IMG/VR virus record: IMGVR_UViG_3300037635_004294
Location: 1 to 22,261 of that record
Origin: a virus
Strand: one strand, 5' to 3'
DNA length: 22,261 nucleotides
In this document: positions 1 through 9,029 of the stretch, one piece after another
How positions within the stretch are numbered: the first letter of the stretch is position 1
How the letters are laid out: each line of letters starts with the position of its first letter
The notes under the pieces: generated by a model
Database searches by the model: none
The model's input: the letters and a program-made list of their open reading frames with translations, nothing else
What the model was told of the DNA's origin: nothing
Position numbers and translations under genes: made by a program

Positions 1-609
1 AGCAATTGTGCCCGTATTGGCTTTTACTTGATAGCCATTTACCAGCGCAGCTAGGAAAGATTCGAAGCTGAAGCCTGCTGATGATGCATTAAAGTTTGTG
101 ATAACTTTTGTTAAAGTTTTATAGAATACAAGGTAAGAGATAGCTTGGGAAATTCTTTTAGTTCTTTCGCCGCCTGCTTGAGCCTCAACCATACTAATGC
201 CATTCGTGTAGAATTGTGAGACACTTCTAATCTTCGTGGCAAAGTCAGAACCCTCAATATTACTTAAGTAGCCTTCCAGTAATTGTCTTTGTGGTCCTTT
301 GATCTCTGCTGCGTCTCCATCTCCGGGTGTACGCACATCTGACCATCCAATTTCTGACACCTCTATATTAGGGATCATTTTAAGGATCATTTCGATTGCC
401 TCGTCATCGCTGGCCGCACTTATATTGGGAGCCTCTTCGGTTATTGTTTCTGCGGATTCTTCAACCGCTTCTTCAATCATGTTGATCAAAGTTTTTATAT
501 CAATCTTTTTAGTTTCTTCAATGAAGTCTTTGTCAATCACGGCGCCCAAAGAGGGAGCCTCTTTCTGTTCTCTAACTTCAACAAACATATCTTTCAAATA
601 ATCGCTCAT
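1..609 (-). CDS. Unidentified phage protein, C-terminus beyond window edge
   Basis: Translating the minus strand from the ATG at 607-609 gives 203 open codons reaching base 1 without a stop, so the C-terminus lies outside the window. The N-terminal 20 or so residues are mixed charge. Residues about 30-65 are strongly acidic and helical (many Glu, with repeated EE pairs), as in linker or chaperone-like segments. From about residue 110 the protein is a normal globular sequence ending in a hydrophobic, helix-rich stretch (SYLVFYKTLTKVI...). I do not recognise the family and see no catalytic motif. It starts 10 bases after the end of the upstream ClpP-like gene (620-1243) and is probably co-transcribed from the promoter at 1675-1703. 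A virion or morphogenesis role is possible because the acidic candidate scaffold gene is close, but that is only context. Confidence 0.75.
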   Translation of the reverse strand, partial: MSDYLKDMFVEVREQKEAPSLGAVIDKDFIEETKKIDIKTLINMIEEAVEESAETITEEAPNISAASDDEAIEMILKMIPNIEVSEIGWSDVRTPGDGDAAEIKGPQRQLLEGYLSNIEGSDFATKIRSVSQFYTNGISMVEAQAGGERTKRISQAISYLVFYKTLTKVITNFNASSAGFSFESFLAALVNGYQVKANTGTIA

Positions 610-619
610 GTATAAAACC

Positions 620-1243
620 TCATATAATTTCGTCAGCAATGCCTAATTCGACCGCTTCTTCTGCTGATAAATAGACATTGACTTTGCGTTCCAGCATTTT
701 TTTAAGTTTAACTCTTGTGAGTTTGGTTTCTGAGATGAGAGCGTCACAGTACATATCCTGCAATTGCTCAATTGCTTCCATCTCATTCATCATATTGTGA
801 AGTGAACCATGGTTGCCACCCATTACCGAATGTATCATAATTCGACAATTCTTGCCTACCTGTCTCTTGCCTTTGGTTCCAGACGCTAACAGTAGTACAC
901 CGGCTGACATCACTTTGCCAAGACCAATTGTTTGAATTTCTGTGGTGTCTCTCACGTTTCTAATCACATCATACATAGCAAACATATCATCTGCATTTCC
1001 ACCATATGTTGATAGGTAGAATTTAACGCCCTTCCTATCTTCTGGCTTCGACTCTAAATTCATCTCGTTAAAGAATAACACACTATGGATGATTTCAGCT
1101 ATCTTTTCTTCGTGAACATCGGCAAAAAGGCCCACAATTCGCAAGTCGGGCTCCTTGGGGCCCCCACCACCTGCGCTTGGATCTAGCAAGATGATTTTTG
1201 GTTCTTCCTGCATGTTTATCAAGTTTTTTATTTTCTTTATCAT
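620..1243 (-). CDS. ClpP-like serine protease (first copy)
   Basis: 207-residue protein of the ClpP/crotonase fold, close to the usual ClpP length. The oligomer-forming core is visible: a strand plus YGG turn at 80-82 (oxyanion side), the nucleophile Ser113 in the motif GKVMSAG, and His138 in MIHSV. The third catalytic residue is less clear. The segment before YLSAEEA (positions 191-197), where ClpP has Asp, carries Glu185 at about the matching place. LSAEEAVELGIADEII is a typical ClpP C-terminal signature. The first 30 residues are not part of the core and include a glycine-rich stretch (24-28), perhaps a propeptide or linker. The start overlaps the stop of the upstream membrane protein (ATGA). 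No Clp ATPase lies in the window, so it may work with the host unfoldase, act alone, or serve as a head-maturation protease. That choice is inference. Confidence 0.87.
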   Translation of the reverse strand: MIKKIKNLINMQEEPKIILLDPSAGGGGPKEPDLRIVGLFADVHEEKIAEIIHSVLFFNEMNLESKPEDRKGVKFYLSTYGGNADDMFAMYDVIRNVRDTTEIQTIGLGKVMSAGVLLLASGTKGKRQVGKNCRIMIHSVMGGNHGSLHNMMNEMEAIEQLQDMYCDALISETKLTRVKLKKMLERKVNVYLSAEEAVELGIADEII

Positions 1244-1626
1244 AATAAGCCCCTCTTAGTATTTAGGTCATCCAAGTATTTCATAGCAGAATCCCAGTCG
1301 TTAAATTCGATAATCGTTGAAAAATGTTCAGGTATGTCTTTTAAAATCTGGGACACTGAGGATTTTTTGAAAAACTTTATATCATTGTCAATCAGTAGCT
1401 TATAATTGTCTACTTGTTCGCTTGAAGCTTCTTTCTTTTCTAGTTGATTGGCTCCGAATGATTTGACATATGAATAGTTTTGTAGGCATCTTGCCAATAT
1501 CAATAAAGATGCGACCACAGAACTTTGCAACAATAGGATACTAGCTTTAGCATTCTTGTATGTCGAGAACGTTCTATGGGTCACATACCCAAATAAAAAT
1601 ACCAAAACGTATAGTAAAAATTCCAC
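1240..1626 (-). CDS. Small membrane-anchored protein of unknown function
   Basis: 128 residues with a GTG start at 1624-1626, preceded by an AGAGG ribosome binding site five bases upstream. The first 16 residues are nearly all hydrophobic (LLYVLVFLFGYV) and form a likely signal anchor. A second hydrophobic helix lies at about 29-46 (ASILLLQSSVVASLLILA), so it may cross the membrane twice. The rest is soluble, charged and probably cytoplasmic, with an acidic C-terminal helix (EFNDWDSAMKYLDDL). I see no enzyme motif. It is the first gene after the promoter at 1675-1703 and overlaps the ClpP-like gene by four bases, so the two are probably made together. A holin-like or protease-partner role is conceivable, but nothing in the sequence shows it. 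Confidence 0.75.
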   Translation of the reverse strand: MEFLLYVLVFLFGYVTHRTFSTYKNAKASILLLQSSVVASLLILARCLQNYSYVKSFGANQLEKKEASSEQVDNYKLLIDNDIKFFKKSSVSQILKDIPEHFSTIIEFNDWDSAMKYLDDLNTKRGLL

Positions 1627-1636
1627 TTTAACCTCT

Positions 1637-1674
1637 AAAAAAAATAACCACTAAAGACAAGCTCTAGTGGTTAT
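1637..1674 (-). terminator. Rho-independent terminator after the acidic protein gene
   Basis: On the minus strand a perfect 10-base-pair stem (ATAACCACTA with TAGTGGTTAT; plus-strand arms 1644-1653 and 1665-1674) encloses an 11-base loop and runs straight into a tract of eight T (1637-1644). It lies about 30 bases after the stop of the acidic protein gene and ends the block that starts at 7698. The T tract directly abuts the ribosome binding site of the next gene. The stem has only four G-C pairs, so read-through is possible. Confidence 0.85.
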
Positions 1675-1703
1675 ATTATAATAGCTTAAGATTGATTTGT
1701 CAA
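1675..1703 (-). promoter_or_regulatory. Perfect-consensus sigma-70 promoter
   Basis: Read on the minus strand: TTGACA at 1703-1698, a 17-base spacer, then TATAAT at 1680-1675, which matches both boxes and the ideal spacing exactly. The expected start site, about seven bases past the -10 box, falls near 1666-1669, inside the 5' arm of the terminator hairpin. A transcript begun here would lack most of that arm and could not form the hairpin, so it should read freely into the genes at 1626, 1243 and 609. The -35 box begins one base after the stop codon of the acidic protein gene. Confidence 0.85.
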
Positions 1704-1704
1704 T

Positions 1705-2307
1705 TTATTTTGTTAGTCTTTTCATAATTCTTTCAGCAAGAGCGTCGACCATTTGCTCTTTCTGGTTAGTTACCTGCAGTCTCTCTGCGACCCTGCGTGC
1801 AACTTCAGAAACCAGATCTTCGTCGGATTCTTCCAAGTTCTCATCTGCTTCCATCATGTCGACTTCATCATCGGCAGCCATTTCAAGTTCATCACCCCCT
1901 TCCGGCTCCAATTCTTCTTCGTCGTCCATTCCCATTTCGTCTCCAGGCTCGTCCATTGCGGCCTTGAGCTTGTCAGCTAATGCAATGATTGCAGCAGCTT
2001 CATCATCTGACAAAGTCATTTCGTCAGCATCACCCATCATATCATCACCCATCATATCTTCAGCATCGTCCATCATATCTTCAGCATCGTCCATCATATC
2101 ATCGCCAGCATCGGCGTCGAGAGCGAGTGCGTCTTCTTCCTCTTCGGGGCCCATATCTTCTTCTTCCAAAGATTGGTCCTCATCCTCATCATCTCTTTTA
2201 TAAATTCCGCCCATCTCTTGAATTTGATCATCACCAACAGTTGTAATGTTAGCAAGTTTCAAAAATTTGCGGATCTCTTGTTCGTTTAGTAAAGTCTTTC
2301 GAGCCAT
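1705..2307 (-). CDS. Highly acidic phage protein, candidate prohead core/scaffold
   Basis: 200 residues dominated by Asp, Glu and Met. The N-terminal 25 residues (MARKTLLNEQEIRKFLKLAN) form a basic to neutral helix. The middle, about 38-165, is almost entirely acidic, including repeats of DDAEDMM. The C-terminal 35 residues (about 166-200) form a second, amphipathic helix with basic residues at the end. This layout, a charged helical rod with conserved ends and a low-complexity acidic core, resembles small acidic prohead core proteins of T4-like phages, and I recall similar proteins in marine phages. Function is therefore inferred from composition only. An excellent ribosome binding site (TAAGGAGAT) precedes the ATG, suggesting high expression. 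A terminator follows directly. A DNA-mimic or chaperone-like role is an alternative. Confidence 0.8.
   Translation of the reverse strand: MARKTLLNEQEIRKFLKLANITTVGDDQIQEMGGIYKRDDEDEDQSLEEEDMGPEEEEDALALDADAGDDMMDDAEDMMDDAEDMMGDDMMGDADEMTLSDDEAAAIIALADKLKAAMDEPGDEMGMDDEEELEPEGGDELEMAADDEVDMMEADENLEESDEDLVSEVARRVAERLQVTNQKEQMVDALAERIMKRLTK
2051..2092. repeat. Two perfect 21-base tandem repeats inside the acidic protein gene
   Basis: The 21-base unit beginning ATCATATCTTCAGC occurs twice without mismatch (2051-2071 and 2072-2092), with partial copies on both sides. It keeps the reading frame and encodes the seven-residue acidic unit DDAEDMM. Such in-frame repeats can expand or contract by slippage and change the length of the acidic core. 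Confidence 0.9.
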
Positions 2308-2323
2308 TATGTAATCTCCTTAA

Positions 2324-2352
2324 GCTATAAAACTCAGTAATAAATAGTGCAA
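2324..2352 (-). promoter_or_regulatory. Weak promoter-like site before the acidic protein gene
   Basis: In the 60-base gap before the acidic gene the minus strand reads TTGCAC (2352-2347), a 17-base spacer and TATAGC (2329-2324). The spacing is ideal but each box matches the sigma-70 consensus in only three or four positions, far worse than the other promoters here. It could be used by a phage-directed sigma factor or be chance. Confidence 0.2.
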
Positions 2353-2368
2353 TATATTCTATATTTCC

Positions 2369-2632
2369 TTAATTTTCAAAAGAACTTAATATTTTGCTGT
2401 TTTTAATTTTTAAAAGTGCTTTCGTTTGTATCTGTTTAATCCTAGCAAACGATACACCAGTCCGGTCTGCAATCTGCCTTAGTGTCATTGGTCCATTTTC
2501 GTGAACTGCAACGAGCGTACAATTTAGCTCGTTTTTAAAATCTATCCACAGGCGGCAGTCTTTATTGGGGCACTCAATGTTCATTTTCTTGCAGGTTCTC
2601 GAACAAAAGTTTAATCCATCTTTATGTTTCAT
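2369..2632 (-). CDS. Sigma-70 region 4-like helix-turn-helix protein with a Cys cluster
   Basis: 87 residues. The C-terminal half (about 48-80) reads MTLRQIADRTGVSFARIKQI followed by a basic helix, which matches the pattern of sigma-70 region 4, where the second helix reads the -35 box and is followed by a KALxKIK-type end. The N-terminal part has four cysteines, Cys10, Cys14, Cys21 and Cys26 (CX3C-X6-CX4C), a possible metal site that normal sigma factors lack. There is no region 2, so it cannot melt a promoter alone. It may act as a co-activator, a truncated late sigma factor or a plain repressor. It is translationally coupled (ATGA) to the upstream small protein, and its own ribosome binding site is weak. 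The next gene is the acidic candidate structural protein, which fits a switch to late genes, but that is inference. Confidence 0.72.
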   Translation of the reverse strand: MKHKDGLNFCSRTCKKMNIECPNKDCRLWIDFKNELNCTLVAVHENGPMTLRQIADRTGVSFARIKQIQTKALLKIKNSKILSSFEN

Positions 2633-2955
2633 AGGTCTGGATGCCCTTCTTCAATGATATCAAACAGGTTAGAAATCTCTCCCTCGCTAAGTCCGAAGTT
2701 CTGTAGTTTTTCTTTCCCCTGCTCGATAAGCTTTTTTGATTTTTGTTTTCTTGTTTTTGATTGTGGCTTTACATCGTCGATATAAGATAAGATCCTATCA
2801 TCGTTGTTTAGGTATCCCGTTATCATACTTCTGAAAAAATCTGATTGCCTTAGATTATCGTGCTTGAGTCTGATTGTCAGTTGAGCATGTCGGTGATCAT
2901 TCTCAGTAAACACCACTCTTTTTGTAAGCTTTCCATATTCAATATCATTCGACAT
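2629..2955 (-). CDS. Small basic protein, possibly DNA-binding, unknown family
   Basis: 108 residues. Residues 10-50 (KRVVFTENDHRHAQLTIRLK...SDFFRSMITGY) look like a short strand followed by two helices, in the order seen in ribbon-helix-helix repressors, with the phrase QSDFFRSMITGYLN resembling their second helix. A strongly basic segment follows (about 63-82: KPQSKTRKQKSKKLI), then an acidic helix ending EEGHPDL. It overlaps the GMP reductase-like gene by one base (TAATG) and the sigma-like gene by four, so the regulator pair is likely made together. DNA binding is inferred only from this pattern. I recall similar small proteins beside the sigma-like gene in marine phages. Confidence 0.65.
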   Translation of the reverse strand: MSNDIEYGKLTKRVVFTENDHRHAQLTIRLKHDNLRQSDFFRSMITGYLNNDDRILSYIDDVKPQSKTRKQKSKKLIEQGKEKLQNFGLSEGEISNLFDIIEEGHPDL

Positions 2956-4007
2956 TACCAGTTCCTCGATAAAATATGTGTTTTACTCTCTGATAATCCC
3001 AGCGACGTCTGGACAATAAATTCTGCTTTGGCGTGTAGCTCCGGTAGGGTCCGGGCGCCTGAATATGAGAATCCCGATCTAATCCCCTTTTCAAGATCTC
3101 TCAGAATTGCTTCCACAGGGCCGCGGTATGGCACTCTACTAGCAACACCCTCGAAAGAGGAGTACTTTCCTCGCCAGTCCATTTGTGCTTCTTTAGAAGC
3201 CATACCTCGATAGCTCTTCCATCTTGAGCCATCTCTGCTCGTCAGTATCTCTCCGGGAGACTCGTCGGTTCCAGAGAGTAGAGAACCGACCATAACAGCA
3301 TCAGCCCCAGCAGCCAGGGCTTTTACAATGTCCCCCGAATTCTTTATGCCGCCGTCTGCAATAATCTTGATATCCCTATCTGTCTGCGCGCACTCAAGGA
3401 TCGTCTGCAGCCCGGGAAGGCCGTGACCAGTCTGGATCCGCGTTGAGCAAATCGAGCCACCGCCAATATTGCATCGAACCGAGTCTGCTCCCCAGTCCGC
3501 CAAGTCATTGATTCCCTCTAGAGTCGCGACATTGCCTGCCATCAGGTGCACATTTTCAATCTTGTGTAATTTTTTAATATTTGCCAATGCATCCTTCATT
3601 AAAATATGATGGCCGTGCGCTACATCCACGCACAGTATACGAGCGCCGTGCCTGATAAGTTCCGAGGCTCTTTCTAGATAGTCTCCAGAGATACCGACGG
3701 CTGCACCAAAAACAGGCGGTATTCTTGTTTTTTTATAGGCATTTTTCATTAAGTTAATTTGCTCTGGTATCGTGTTATACCTATGGATAATTGCGGTACC
3801 GCCGAGTCGACTTGTGACAATGGCCATATCAGTTTCTGATACCGTATCCATTGGTGACGCTATGATAGGTAACTTAAGTTTTAACTTGTCACCCAGGGCC
3901 GACGAAATATCAATTTCGCTTCGTGAGCGTATGTCTGAATATTGTGGCTTCAGTAGCACGTCGTCATAGGAAAGCCCGTTAGGGTATTTTTTAGTTTCTT
4001 GTATCAT
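2955..4007 (-). CDS. GMP reductase / IMP dehydrogenase family enzyme, CBS-less
   Basis: 350 residues forming the TIM barrel of the family. Visible: the N-terminal [16 protein letters not shown] (51-56), the phosphate-binding [10 protein letters not shown] (217-226), and the catalytic loop GGGSICSTR with Cys187 and Thr189. There are no CBS domains, and the length equals that of GMP reductase. The catalytic flap is short and lacks the Arg-Tyr pair (RYFQ type) that IMP dehydrogenase uses for hydrolysis, and the loop after Cys ([14 protein letters not shown]) resembles GMP reductase. The C-terminus ([15 protein letters not shown]), however, resembles IMP dehydrogenase. I favour GMP to IMP reduction with NADPH but cannot settle the direction. 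The gene is coupled to the thioredoxin-like gene (ATGA overlap). It would shift host purine pools during infection. Confidence 0.85.
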
Positions 4008-4378
4008 ATGCTGCTCTCAATAAATTTTCTAATATCTTTAATGTAGTACCAGGTTTTTTCATTTGGCTTTTCTGGATCGCCAAGTACTCTAATTTTAATA
4101 TTCCGGCTTGGGCCCCCCCGAAAGCTAGCAATCGTCGGGACACCATTGATTTTGATTATCTTATCTAAATTGCCTTCAACATCATCAACATTAAAAGCAA
4201 AGAAAAATAAATTCTTACTATCATCTTTGTATGATTCTGCTAAGTCTTGATAGTAATCTTTCAATGCGTGACATAGGTGACATTCTTGTGAGTAAAACTT
4301 CACAATGCAAGTTGCATTTTCAGAAAGCTTACCGTTTTTTAATCTTCTTAGGGTTTCAACCCCTATTCTCTCCACCAT
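4004..4378 (-). CDS. Thioredoxin-like protein
   Basis: 124 residues with a thioredoxin fold. The beta strand CIVKFYS leads into the redox motif CHLC (Cys33 and Cys36), and the cis-proline is in NGVPTIASF (Pro81). CHLC is not the canonical CGPC, so its redox potential may differ, and CxxC proteins of this type can also be glutaredoxin- or disulfide isomerase-like. There is no signal peptide, so it should act in the cytoplasm. A plausible substrate is the C-terminal Cys pair of the phage ribonucleotide reductase, which needs external reductant. The ATG at 4378 is served by AGAGG nine bases upstream and lies inside the previous gene (23-base overlap). It overlaps the next gene by four bases. Confidence 0.85.
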   Translation of the reverse strand: MVERIGVETLRRLKNGKLSENATCIVKFYSQECHLCHALKDYYQDLAESYKDDSKNLFFFAFNVDDVEGNLDKIIKINGVPTIASFRGGPSRNIKIRVLGDPEKPNEKTWYYIKDIRKFIESSI

Positions 4379-4631
4379 TTTTCATAACCTCTTTTATAAT
4401 TTCATTTGCTCTGTTCCAACATTCAGGACAATAAAGCCTGACTGTGTCCTTGTCTTTTACGACAACATTCCAAGTTTTTGCCATCTCTTTACTTTTTTTA
4501 TCAAACGACTTTTCGCAAGTCAGGCACATTTCTGGTAGTTTTTCAAAAAGTGCAACTTGGTTTGCTATCTTTGAACTGCCATCTGCCTTTTTTTGAGCCT
4601 TGTCAAAAGCCCTTCTCTGTTTGCGATTCAC
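4356..4631 (-). CDS. Small zinc-ribbon-like protein of unknown function
   Basis: 91 residues with a GTG start (4629-4631) coupled to the upstream stop (GTGA overlap) and preceded by AAGGA. The N-terminus (MNRKQRRAFDKAQKK) is a basic helix, probably nucleic-acid contacting. Two CxxC pairs, Cys36/Cys39 and Cys68/Cys71, flank a beta segment (WNVVVKDKDTVRLYC) and form a likely zinc ribbon. I cannot assign a function; transcription- or DNA-associated roles are common for such ribbons. Confidence 0.72.
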   Translation of the reverse strand: MNRKQRRAFDKAQKKADGSSKIANQVALFEKLPEMCLTCEKSFDKKSKEMAKTWNVVVKDKDTVRLYCPECWNRANEIIKEVMKNGGENRG

Positions 4632-4984
4632 TTTTTCTTCCTTCTCTTCTGCGAATCGCGATACATTTTAGAACGCTGCATAAGCTCATCATGACCTATG
4701 CTGGGTTCTTCTTCTGCAAGCTCTTCTTCAACATTAACCTCTGTGGGTTCCTCTGGTTGGTTGGACTCAGCCTCGGCCGCGGTTTGGCTGGCAAGAGTGC
4801 CAGAGTATTGCTGCAGCGTGATAAGAGCACCTTCAAGTTGTGCCAGCGCAATAGAATGTTGAACGATCTGATCAACAGTCTCCGTCGACGCAGGCCTGTG
4901 ATATAAGTCTTTAATAATTGCAAATCTCTCAACTGCTCTAGACTTGAGCCTTAAAATTGCTGATTGTAATACTTCTTCGGTCAT
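4628..4984 (-). CDS. Helical, acidic-tailed protein of unknown function
   Basis: 118 residues. The first 65 are predicted amphipathic helices (LRLKSRAVERFAIIKDLYHR and IVQHSIALAQLEGALITLQQ), likely a helical hairpin or coiled coil. Residues about 68-95 are Glu- and Pro-rich and probably disordered, and the last 15 are very basic (QKRRKKK). There is no known motif. The ATG has a GGAG site seven bases upstream, and the gene lies ten bases after the methyltransferase-like gene. An oligomeric adaptor is possible. Confidence 0.7.
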   Translation of the reverse strand: MTEEVLQSAILRLKSRAVERFAIIKDLYHRPASTETVDQIVQHSIALAQLEGALITLQQYSGTLASQTAAEAESNQPEEPTEVNVEEELAEEEPSIGHDELMQRSKMYRDSQKRRKKK

Positions 4985-4993
4985 CGTATACTC

Positions 4994-5467
4994 CTATCTG
5001 TTGATACCTTCTACTCTCCACAATTCATCGCCGCCATCAAATACTACGACTGCTGACGGAAATGGTGCGGAATTCTTACTGTCACCAAACTTTAGGCGAC
5101 CTTTCACAAAGTGAATCTCTGATGCCTTCATTACATACTTGTGCCAATACTTGGTATCGGTTCGGGCCGGAATGAGCATAACTACCTTTGTGCCAGTTTT
5201 CATAGCTTCATTGTAACTTTTTTCGATCCACTTGTCAATACCTCTTCCGTAGGGAGGATTAACAAAGCATGTAAACCCTTCCCAATCTTTTTCTAAACCG
5301 TTCTCGGTTTTTGTAAAGAAGTTGGCACATTTGGTGTTGTGCGTACTTGCACAAGGATCCAAATCAAAAGGTCCAAATCTCCAATTCAATTTGTCAAAGA
5401 ACTCTTGTGGGGTTGCCCAGTTTCCTGTCTTGGAGCTGAACATTGTCTGTTGTGTTTCTTTGTTCAT
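4994..5467 (-). CDS. Phage-type DNA N-6-adenine methyltransferase (Dam family)
   Basis: 157 residues from the ATG at 5465-5467. I prefer this to a 180-residue version starting at 5536, whose extra 23 residues overlap the upstream gene; here AAGGA lies just upstream and the gap to that gene is four bases. The SAM-binding motif is DLDPCAS (35-41), and the catalytic NPPYG (70-74) has the order and spacing of the small phage Dam family (typical length about 150-170). LIPARTDTKYWHKYV and GRLKFG are also characteristic. It should transfer a methyl group from S-adenosylmethionine to adenine N6. The target site is unknown. It immediately follows a DUF262-HNH protein, so it may protect phage DNA from that enzyme or from host restriction. 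Some family members are inactive, so activity is not proven. Confidence 0.9.
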   Translation of the reverse strand: MNKETQQTMFSSKTGNWATPQEFFDKLNWRFGPFDLDPCASTHNTKCANFFTKTENGLEKDWEGFTCFVNPPYGRGIDKWIEKSYNEAMKTGTKVVMLIPARTDTKYWHKYVMKASEIHFVKGRLKFGDSKNSAPFPSAVVVFDGGDELWRVEGINR

Positions 5468-5471
5468 TATA

Positions 5472-6896
5472 TTATTGTTCCTTCTGGTGGTTAAAGTGTG
5501 GTTGATTAGATGTGGCACCTTTCTGGCGGTTATCATAAATCATCATCAGTTCTCCATTATCAATTGTCGTACTGCCGCCATCTTTAATGGATATCATGTG
5601 ATCTGCTTCTAGTTTGCCAGTGTAAAGATCTAAAATAGAAATCTCTTCTCCAGTTCGTAACTTGCCCTCTTGAAGATAAAACATCTTGAGTCGCTGACTC
5701 GTAGTAAACACATCAGAAGAAGTTCTAACGTTGGCCAAAGTGCCATCCTCAAGTAGCGCTGCGAGATCTCTTGTTAAGGCGCGCTTGAACAAATTAAGGC
5801 TCTTTAGAAACGGAGTTCTTTGAGTATGTACTCGTAGCCAATAAGTGTAAGACCTCTCATGCTGATCTTTTTCTAAGACCTTAAGAGAAATTTGCCGGAA
5901 CGCCTGATCTGTTTCTAAAAACCAAGCCATAAACTGCTTATGATTATCAATTTTTATTTCTTTTTTGTGGGAATTAATATAAGTAACCAAATCAAAAAGG
6001 ACTTGTTGGAGGCCTTTCTCCAGCCTGTGTCGCTTAACCAGCTTAATATCTTTCGCGATAAGCGCTACGTCTTTCATTACCTCCGCAACAATACTTGTGG
6101 TGGTTTTTGATAACTCTGGTGTGTCTTCATAAAACGAATCCAATTGTTTAGCGCCGCATTCGGACATGTAACTGCCCTCTATCTTTAGTACAAGCTGTGC
6201 CAAAGCTTCTTCATGTTTGCGTTTGTCCAGGTCTGCTGCGGACATAGTCATTAGGTTTTCGAAAATCAATCTATTCTGTGGCTCATTAGCGGTGTCTCTG
6301 ACAAATTTAGCCATGAGTGACCATCGAGCTTGACGATATTCTTGTTTGTTGAGGTGGGTTGATGTATTCTCTCTTCGAAAAAGTTCACACATCTCAATAA
6401 TTCCGATTTTGCGGAATGTATAATACGTCAGCTTTTCTGTGTAAAGTAAGTCCTCTTGCTCTGACTCCGACAAATCTCTGAAATACTTCTTCTTTTTTCC
6501 TTTTCCGCGAGTAGTTGGATCTAAATCAGTATAAACCGCGAATTCATTGTTAATATATGCATTAAATGTGCTAGCACTGTTATTTCCATCTATGCTGACG
6601 TATTTGTGCCCTTCATCCAGCAGTGCTTTAAAGTATGTTTCGGATTCTGTATCTCTGATATCGACAGCACAGCGATAGCACGACTCTACCTCTGCGTTCA
6701 TAATCTTATTAAACACTTTGCCGGCAAATACGGACTCCATGTACTGTTCTGCTGCTTTCTTCGTCCAGCCGGAGCCTCGCTCCATACCACCCCATCGCTG
6801 AAAGTTGCCGTCCAATTTAGTTTGATTATATTTCTTTCTAATAATGTGTAAAGATTCTTTAGTTTCTTTTACATCGTAAACGTCGTTCCCTTTCAT
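5472..6896 (-). CDS. DUF262 domain protein with C-terminal HNH endonuclease motif
   Basis: 474 residues. The N-terminal third resembles the DUF262/ParB-like NTPase domain of GmrSD, SspE and BrxU: an FQR motif at 32-34, an IDGNN segment at 102-106 where family members have DGQQR, and a helical section IEMCELFRRENTSTHLNKQE that matches the conserved FxRxN...LxxQExR. The usual Arg after the Gln pair is replaced by Ser107 (DGNNS), so NTP use may be altered. The middle is long and helical. The end holds an HNH nuclease core: Asp432-His433 (EADH), Asn447, Asn456, with Arg457 and Lys459. No cysteine zinc pair is seen. Family members cut modified or unmodified DNA as defence. The ATG has a strong AGGAG, and the methyltransferase gene follows by four bases. 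A restriction-like, superinfection-exclusion or mobile-nuclease role are the alternatives. Confidence 0.8.
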   Translation of the reverse strand: MKGNDVYDVKETKESLHIIRKKYNQTKLDGNFQRWGGMERGSGWTKKAAEQYMESVFAGKVFNKIMNAEVESCYRCAVDIRDTESETYFKALLDEGHKYVSIDGNNSASTFNAYINNEFAVYTDLDPTTRGKGKKKKYFRDLSESEQEDLLYTEKLTYYTFRKIGIIEMCELFRRENTSTHLNKQEYRQARWSLMAKFVRDTANEPQNRLIFENLMTMSAADLDKRKHEEALAQLVLKIEGSYMSECGAKQLDSFYEDTPELSKTTTSIVAEVMKDVALIAKDIKLVKRHRLEKGLQQVLFDLVTYINSHKKEIKIDNHKQFMAWFLETDQAFRQISLKVLEKDQHERSYTYWLRVHTQRTPFLKSLNLFKRALTRDLAALLEDGTLANVRTSSDVFTTSQRLKMFYLQEGKLRTGEEISILDLYTGKLEADHMISIKDGGSTTIDNGELMMIYDNRQKGATSNQPHFNHQKEQ

Positions 6897-8423: not shown

Positions 8424-9029
8424 CTATTCAAACTTGAAAGATACTCGTGTATCTATTATAAGCTCAGGAATATGCGAATAGTTTGCCAGGCCGTGCTTTA
8501 AACATTCATCGGCATCTAAAAACCAATCAGCGTGACCTTTCTCGTGCACAATATCAAGGAAATAATCTTTATGATGCCCACAGTTCTCAGCCATCATTTG
8601 GAAAATCTTTTTGTTTAATCGATCGGTTTCCTCGGCGCTGACCTTGATCTCTTCAACTTTGCCCCAACTCATCGAACTAACTTCGTGAATCATAATTGTA
8701 GCGTCGGGGTCTACGTAGCGCATACCTTCGTGTCCAAAACTAAACAAAATTGCGCCACAAGACATCGCTTTACCTTCGATAATAGTTGCAACAGGAATCC
8801 TGCTGTGTCTGATATTAGAAATCATTGACATTAAACTGTAGACTTGTCCGCCATAGCTGTCAATAATTATTGGCAAAACTGGTTGACCTGTGTTTTGAGC
8901 TTTTGAAACAACAGAAGAAAATGCTTTTGCTGTTGGTTCATCAAATTTGTTGATTCTTGCGACGATCGGTAAATCATCAAGAAGAGATGGTTCCTTAAGA
9001 AGCGGGCTGAACGTTTTGAGTATGTGCAT
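8424..9029 (-). CDS. ClpP-like serine protease (second copy)
   Basis: 201 residues of the ClpP fold. The nucleophile is Ser90 in KAMSCG, the general base His115 in IMIHEV, the glycine turn is SYGG (58-61), and the acid may be Asp168 in HADWFLDADE. The start is near the core with no long propeptide. It differs greatly from the first copy, with only the motifs shared, so the pair is not a recent duplication. The length matches ClpP or phage S14/S49-like proteases. It is placed between the polymerase gene, whose stop overlaps its ribosome binding site, and the J-domain gene, suggesting proteostasis or processing of a replication or head protein. The substrate is unknown. Confidence 0.88.
   Translation of the reverse strand: MHILKTFSPLLKEPSLLDDLPIVARINKFDEPTAKAFSSVVSKAQNTGQPVLPIIIDSYGGQVYSLMSMISNIRHSRIPVATIIEGKAMSCGAILFSFGHEGMRYVDPDATIMIHEVSSMSWGKVEEIKVSAEETDRLNKKIFQMMAENCGHHKDYFLDIVHEKGHADWFLDADECLKHGLANYSHIPELIIDTRVSFKFE

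Follow-up and report, generated by a model that had tools for sequence, protein, structure and literature searches.

Intrinsic (Rho-independent) terminators consist of a stem followed by a T tract, and in attenuators with alternative hairpins the folding of the RNA near its 5' end chooses between stop and go. A closer parallel to the element described here is offered by the promoter-early stem-loop (PeSL) cassettes of T4-like phages, which were reportedly described by Arbiol et al. in 2010 (doi 10.1093/gbe/evq006) and by Comeau et al. in 2014 (doi 10.1093/gbe/evu129), the latter under the title 'Composite conserved promoter-terminator motifs'. These are small composites of a strong sigma70-type promoter and an intrinsic terminator located between myovirus genes, in which the terminator serves the preceding gene and the promoter the next one. 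PeSLs are said to be numerous and mobile (PMC4503421). Here we analyse an element with the same two parts in the 22,261-nucleotide virus record IMGVR_UViG_3300037635_004294 from IMG/VR (positions 1 to 22,261, hereafter the window). The element occupies 1637-1703 on the minus strand. Its sequence and conservation point most plausibly to a promoter joined to a start-dependent terminator, which would use the two parts of the known composite in a new arrangement.

On the minus strand, the element fills the gap between the stop codon of one gene (1707-1705) and the Shine-Dalgarno sequence of the next. The -35 box TTGACA (1698-1703) starts 2 nucleotides past this stop codon and is separated by 17 nucleotides from the -10 box TATAAT (1675-1680), which is followed by a terminator-type hairpin (1644-1674), a tract of seven T directly after the stem (1637-1643) and the Shine-Dalgarno-like sequence AGAGG (1632-1636), which lies 5 nucleotides ahead of a GTG start codon at 1626. 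With 12 of 12 consensus bases and a spacer within the 16-18 nucleotides typical of sigma70-type promoters, the promoter is the sole perfect match in the window, where dinucleotide shuffles predict 0.01. The hairpin has 13 base pairs, four of them G-C, formed by a 5' arm at 1674-1662 and a 3' arm at 1656-1644 around the five-nucleotide loop CTTGT, and is the longest inverted repeat in the window among arms no more than 60 nucleotides apart. Its RNA folds at -14.9 kcal/mol, compared with a mean of -6.1 for shuffled sequences (z = -3.9), so that a stable stem and a sense-strand T tract, the sequence hallmarks of an intrinsic terminator, are both present. No Rfam model matched the element, and the search of positions 1-6000 returned only three sub-threshold matches elsewhere. 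An earlier note on this DNA had placed a perfect promoter directly against a terminator at exactly these coordinates, which our analysis bears out. It had also held that promoter and terminator share bases; this is not the case in the window, where the stem begins directly after the -10 box and includes none of its bases, but the last bases of TATAAT do belong to the stem in 72 of 103 relatives.

These relatives were collected in two ways. When viral contigs in IMG/VR were scanned with the ClpP protein alone, we obtained 48 loci with 45-98% identity, and the fusion was present at the same place in 44 of them. In each of the 44, the best promoter within 900 bases before clpP matched the consensus at 11-12 of 12 positions, had a spacer of 17 nucleotides and was followed immediately by a hairpin. 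The four loci without the element (L043, L046, L047 and L049) belong to the most divergent ones and have no convincing homologue of the membrane protein that otherwise follows it. Pattern searches raised the collection to at least 103 distinct elements; the filter for this larger set itself required a 17-nucleotide spacer and a core motif, whereas the ClpP-based set is free of that choice. The -35 box is kept in all 103 relatives, and promoter scores are 12/12 in 81, 11/12 in 19 and 10/12 in three. The core AACCA of the 5' arm begins 0, 2, 5 or 6 nucleotides past TATAAT in 72, 25, 4 and 2 cases, respectively, and the 8 nucleotides past the stem contain 4-8 T in each of the 101 relatives that were measured. 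The 89 ClpP sequences that could be read among the 103 loci fall into 57 clusters at 90% identity and 27 at 80%.

The gene order around the element is conserved as well. Upstream lies a gene for an acidic protein of 200 amino acids (1705-2307, minus strand), whose transcript the terminator would end and whose homologue is found upstream of the listed family elements. Downstream follow a small membrane-type protein of 128 amino acids (1240-1626, minus), with a homologue after 102 of the 103 elements, and a ClpP-like protease (620-1243, minus; Pfam PF00574, 7e-30). The acidic protein returned a single locus when used as the scan query, and ClpP was used instead. The window also encodes a second, divergent ClpP-like protein at 8424-9029 on the minus strand (PF00574, 1.2e-23).

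We then asked how tightly promoter and hairpin are associated. Among the matches listed for a hairpin pattern that carried no promoter requirement, a promoter with at least 10 of 12 consensus bases abutted the hairpin in 58 of 85 viral matches versus 3 of 128 matches in bacterial genomes (Fisher p = 2.5e-27), and none of the three bacterial promoters exceeded 10/12. In searches that started from the promoter, 21 of 82 matches to a pattern extended by AACCA (TATAATAACCA) had an overlapping terminator after them, while a control with the scrambled extension ACCAA (TATAATACCAA) gave 0 of 63.

The stem itself covaries. When 31 distinct elements of the set collected through ClpP were aligned, 97% of the cells of an 11-pair stem were paired and 7 of the 11 pairs changed on both sides; none of 500 shuffles reached the covariation score of this stem, RNAalifold recovered the same structure, and sliding one partner by a single base reduced pairing to 32-44%. 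U-G pairs are frequent (14 of 31 at one position), and since the opposite strand would have A-C in their place, the structure belongs to the sense-strand RNA. Conservation extends to the outer pairs upstream of the predicted start (columns 11-16), which include double changes from A-U to G-C and from C-G to U-A. The span of the hairpin from arm to arm varies between 23 and 40 nucleotides across relatives.

Compared with PeSLs, the window shares the composition of a sigma70-type promoter and a stem-loop terminator. In the clear cassettes of RB49 the terminator comes first and the two do not overlap, whereas in the 103 relatives considered here the order is reversed and the parts overlap. PeSLs are said to occur in many similar copies per genome in plastic regions, where they would mediate shuffling; in contrast, each of 12 large contigs (36-195 kb) holds a single copy of the present element at the syntenic locus, and we rejected the idea of a mobile cassette repeated within genomes. 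For a direct comparison, 90 kb of RB49 (L123-L125) were scanned by the same method. These stretches contain clear terminator-promoter cassettes in which the hairpin ends 14-18 nucleotides upstream of the -35 box, and other promoters with a hairpin after the -10 box. One further case is the promoter before RB49 gene 39 (L123, about 3201, minus strand), a 12/12 match overlapped by a terminator-like hairpin of 12 base pairs with a T tract, but in this single case the hairpin straddles the -10 box and its 5' arm is the promoter spacer. Inverted repeats that straddle a -10 box were also seen at consensus promoters of tRNA genes (L106 at 11766 and 12435, minus; L115 at 18402 and 18800, plus), where they are G+C-rich (for example CCCTCTCGGTTATAATAAGAGGG), and L115 has a series of similar promoter cassettes. 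An overlapping promoter-terminator of the kind described here was not found in the literature searched, and an earlier description is possible; where ONT-cappable-seq was applied to LUZ100 and CKA15, the passages searched do not mention the arrangement either.

The position of the predicted transcription start would give this arrangement its meaning. By the usual spacing from the -10 box, transcription from the promoter would start at 1666-1669 on the minus strand, most probably at A1668 with C at -1, and this region lies inside the 5' arm, as the earlier note had proposed. When the start was assumed at +7 past the -10 box, it fell inside the 5' arm in 103 of 103 elements. We next computed the energy of stems whose base lies within 2 nucleotides of the T tract, and found that the median changes from -14.1 kcal/mol for RNA from upstream to 0 for RNA from +7, and in the window from -13.7 to 0. 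Window RNA folded from 1668 retains a structure of -4.6 kcal/mol, but this stem stands 6 nucleotides away from the T tract. The claim of the earlier note that such RNA would lack most of the 5' arm holds for the loss, which affects the pairs adjoining the T tract, but not for its extent, as 6 of 13 pairs, or about half, are concerned. Over the whole family, nothing better than -4 kcal/mol remains anchored after truncation at +7 in 81 of 101 elements, the window included.

These data suggest that the fusion probably acts as a one-way boundary that stops RNA arriving from upstream and lets RNA born at the promoter escape. A polymerase coming from the acidic-protein gene would transcribe both arms, the hairpin would fold right before the T tract and the transcript would be released. 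A host-type sigma70 RNA polymerase would use the consensus promoter to initiate afresh near A1668. The six outermost bases of the 5' arm would be missing from its RNA, the pairs adjoining the T tract could then not form, and transcription would continue into the membrane-protein and clpP-like genes. Because the promoter precedes the terminator, the downstream genes could not be expressed from it without escape, and the strongest argument for escape is that 57 ClpP clusters retain both halves in an order that would otherwise defeat itself. Unlike in an ordinary intrinsic terminator, the 5' arm is split by the predicted start and function would depend on the origin of the RNA; unlike in attenuators, the start point of the RNA would decide, and neither a ligand nor a ribosome would be needed. 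The reading of the segment as a compact insulator, put forward in the earlier note, thus gains support from joint conservation at one boundary, stem covariation, the T tract, the predicted start within the 5' arm and the computed loss of the anchored stem in most elements.

Several features of the family weigh against escape as a universal property and bear on the possibility that the element is a promoter-proximal attenuator, in which promoter-born RNA still forms a shorter terminator, with a fixed escape fraction or a response to a factor, and short leader RNAs are produced. Anchored stems of -4 to -6.4 kcal/mol remain from +7 in 18 of the 101 elements and stems of about -13 to -14 kcal/mol in two; these strong stems mark two lineages, L015/L110 and L023/L085, where the hairpin starts 3-4 nucleotides past the -10 box and would survive initiation at +7. 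Four elements have an intermediate geometry, and many stems of the family are A+T-rich, a point that concerns the strength of termination. Moreover, the loop of the clade L021-L042 (L021, L022, L025, L029, L031, L036 and L039-L042) contains a second AACCAT-like copy; in promoter-born RNA this copy could pair with the 3' arm and rebuild a weak stem of about -3.6 to -6.4 kcal/mol, although the T tract of this clade is mostly interrupted (TTTCATTT), which speaks against attenuation there. Given that truncation leaves the window and most other elements with nothing anchored that reaches -4 kcal/mol, we consider attenuation unlikely as the general function. The variants in L015/L110, L023/L085 and L021-L042 may be attenuating or may use start sites further downstream, and escape may not be universal but graded in some phages.

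It is improbable that the hairpin mainly serves promoter-born mRNA, as a 5'-terminal stem-loop that guards against decay or shapes translation, with termination being incidental. The inner pairs covary, and in the class to which the window belongs, with the core offset by 2 nucleotides, the residual stem begins exactly at the predicted first base, as this proposal would have it; however, it leaves unexplained both the T tract and the conservation of outer pairs that lie before the start. Equally hard to sustain is mere adjacency of promoter and terminator, by chance or genome compaction and without functional coupling. Space is indeed tight, with only about 55-90 nucleotides between the -35 box and the next start codon across the family, but the conservation in 44 of 48 loci, the viral association among the matches listed, the offsets between -10 box and core of mostly 0 or 2 and a fixed order that is sensible only with escape all speak for coupling. 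Finally, the inverted repeat overlaps the initiation region, where a dimeric repressor might bind it as an operator; we rejected this highly implausible explanation because the variable span, the covarying arms and the U-G wobble pairs do not agree with the fixed half-site spacing and conserved half-site sequence of a DNA operator.

The fusion is carried by a large group of tailed phages that are uncultured and mostly of marine origin. All evident genes of the window are on the minus strand, and besides the ClpP-like protease they encode IMP dehydrogenase, a thioredoxin-like protein, a sigma70 region-4 protein, a DnaE-type polymerase, a B12-type ribonucleotide reductase, a RecA-like recombinase and UvdE. 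A 195-kb relative (the L023 contig) encodes terminase, portal, tail sheath, PhoH, a UvsX-like recombinase and GroEL, a gene set that identifies the group as large contractile-tailed phages; its terminase shows 48% identity with the enzyme of Flavobacterium phage immuto and 44% with the one of Microcystis phage Mel-JY01. DNA searches against cultured phages gave no match for the surrounding 2.1 kb and chance-level matches only for the 68-nucleotide element, and the flank of clpP in the cultured Vibrio phage pv27 (35% identity) has no comparable promoter. The gene for the sigma70 region-4 protein (87 amino acids; 2369-2632, minus; PF04545, 9e-08) stands two genes ahead of the element, and its product might influence promoter choice. 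Other promoter-like sequences occur in these genomes. An 11/12 site lies inside a methyltransferase-like gene of the window (5210-5238, minus) and is 12/12 in four relatives (the contigs of L023, L004, L051 and L016); here the conserved peptide GIDKWIEKxYN spells TTGACA-N17-TAtAAT, and coding constraint and a real internal promoter are indistinguishable. A second 12/12 promoter, which has no hairpin and often comes with TATAATATAATATAAC, is located about 2.4-2.9 kb downstream, before a GroEL gene, in the contigs of L023 (138013), L004 (4489), L012 (4225) and L051 (3849).

If the one-way boundary operates as proposed, it would be a tiny natural insulator, in which about 70 bases end one transcription unit and start the next with no protein beyond RNA polymerase, and it could become a compact part in gene circuits. 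More tentatively, start-dependent terminators of this sort may be a class of their own, kept throughout a deep clade of marine myoviruses, with the second AACCAT and the shifted stem as lineage variants that tune the stopping of promoter-born RNA. The control DNA shows stronger conservation than the membrane protein encoded after it, and it marks a conserved regulatory boundary in uncultured phages known only from metagenomes.
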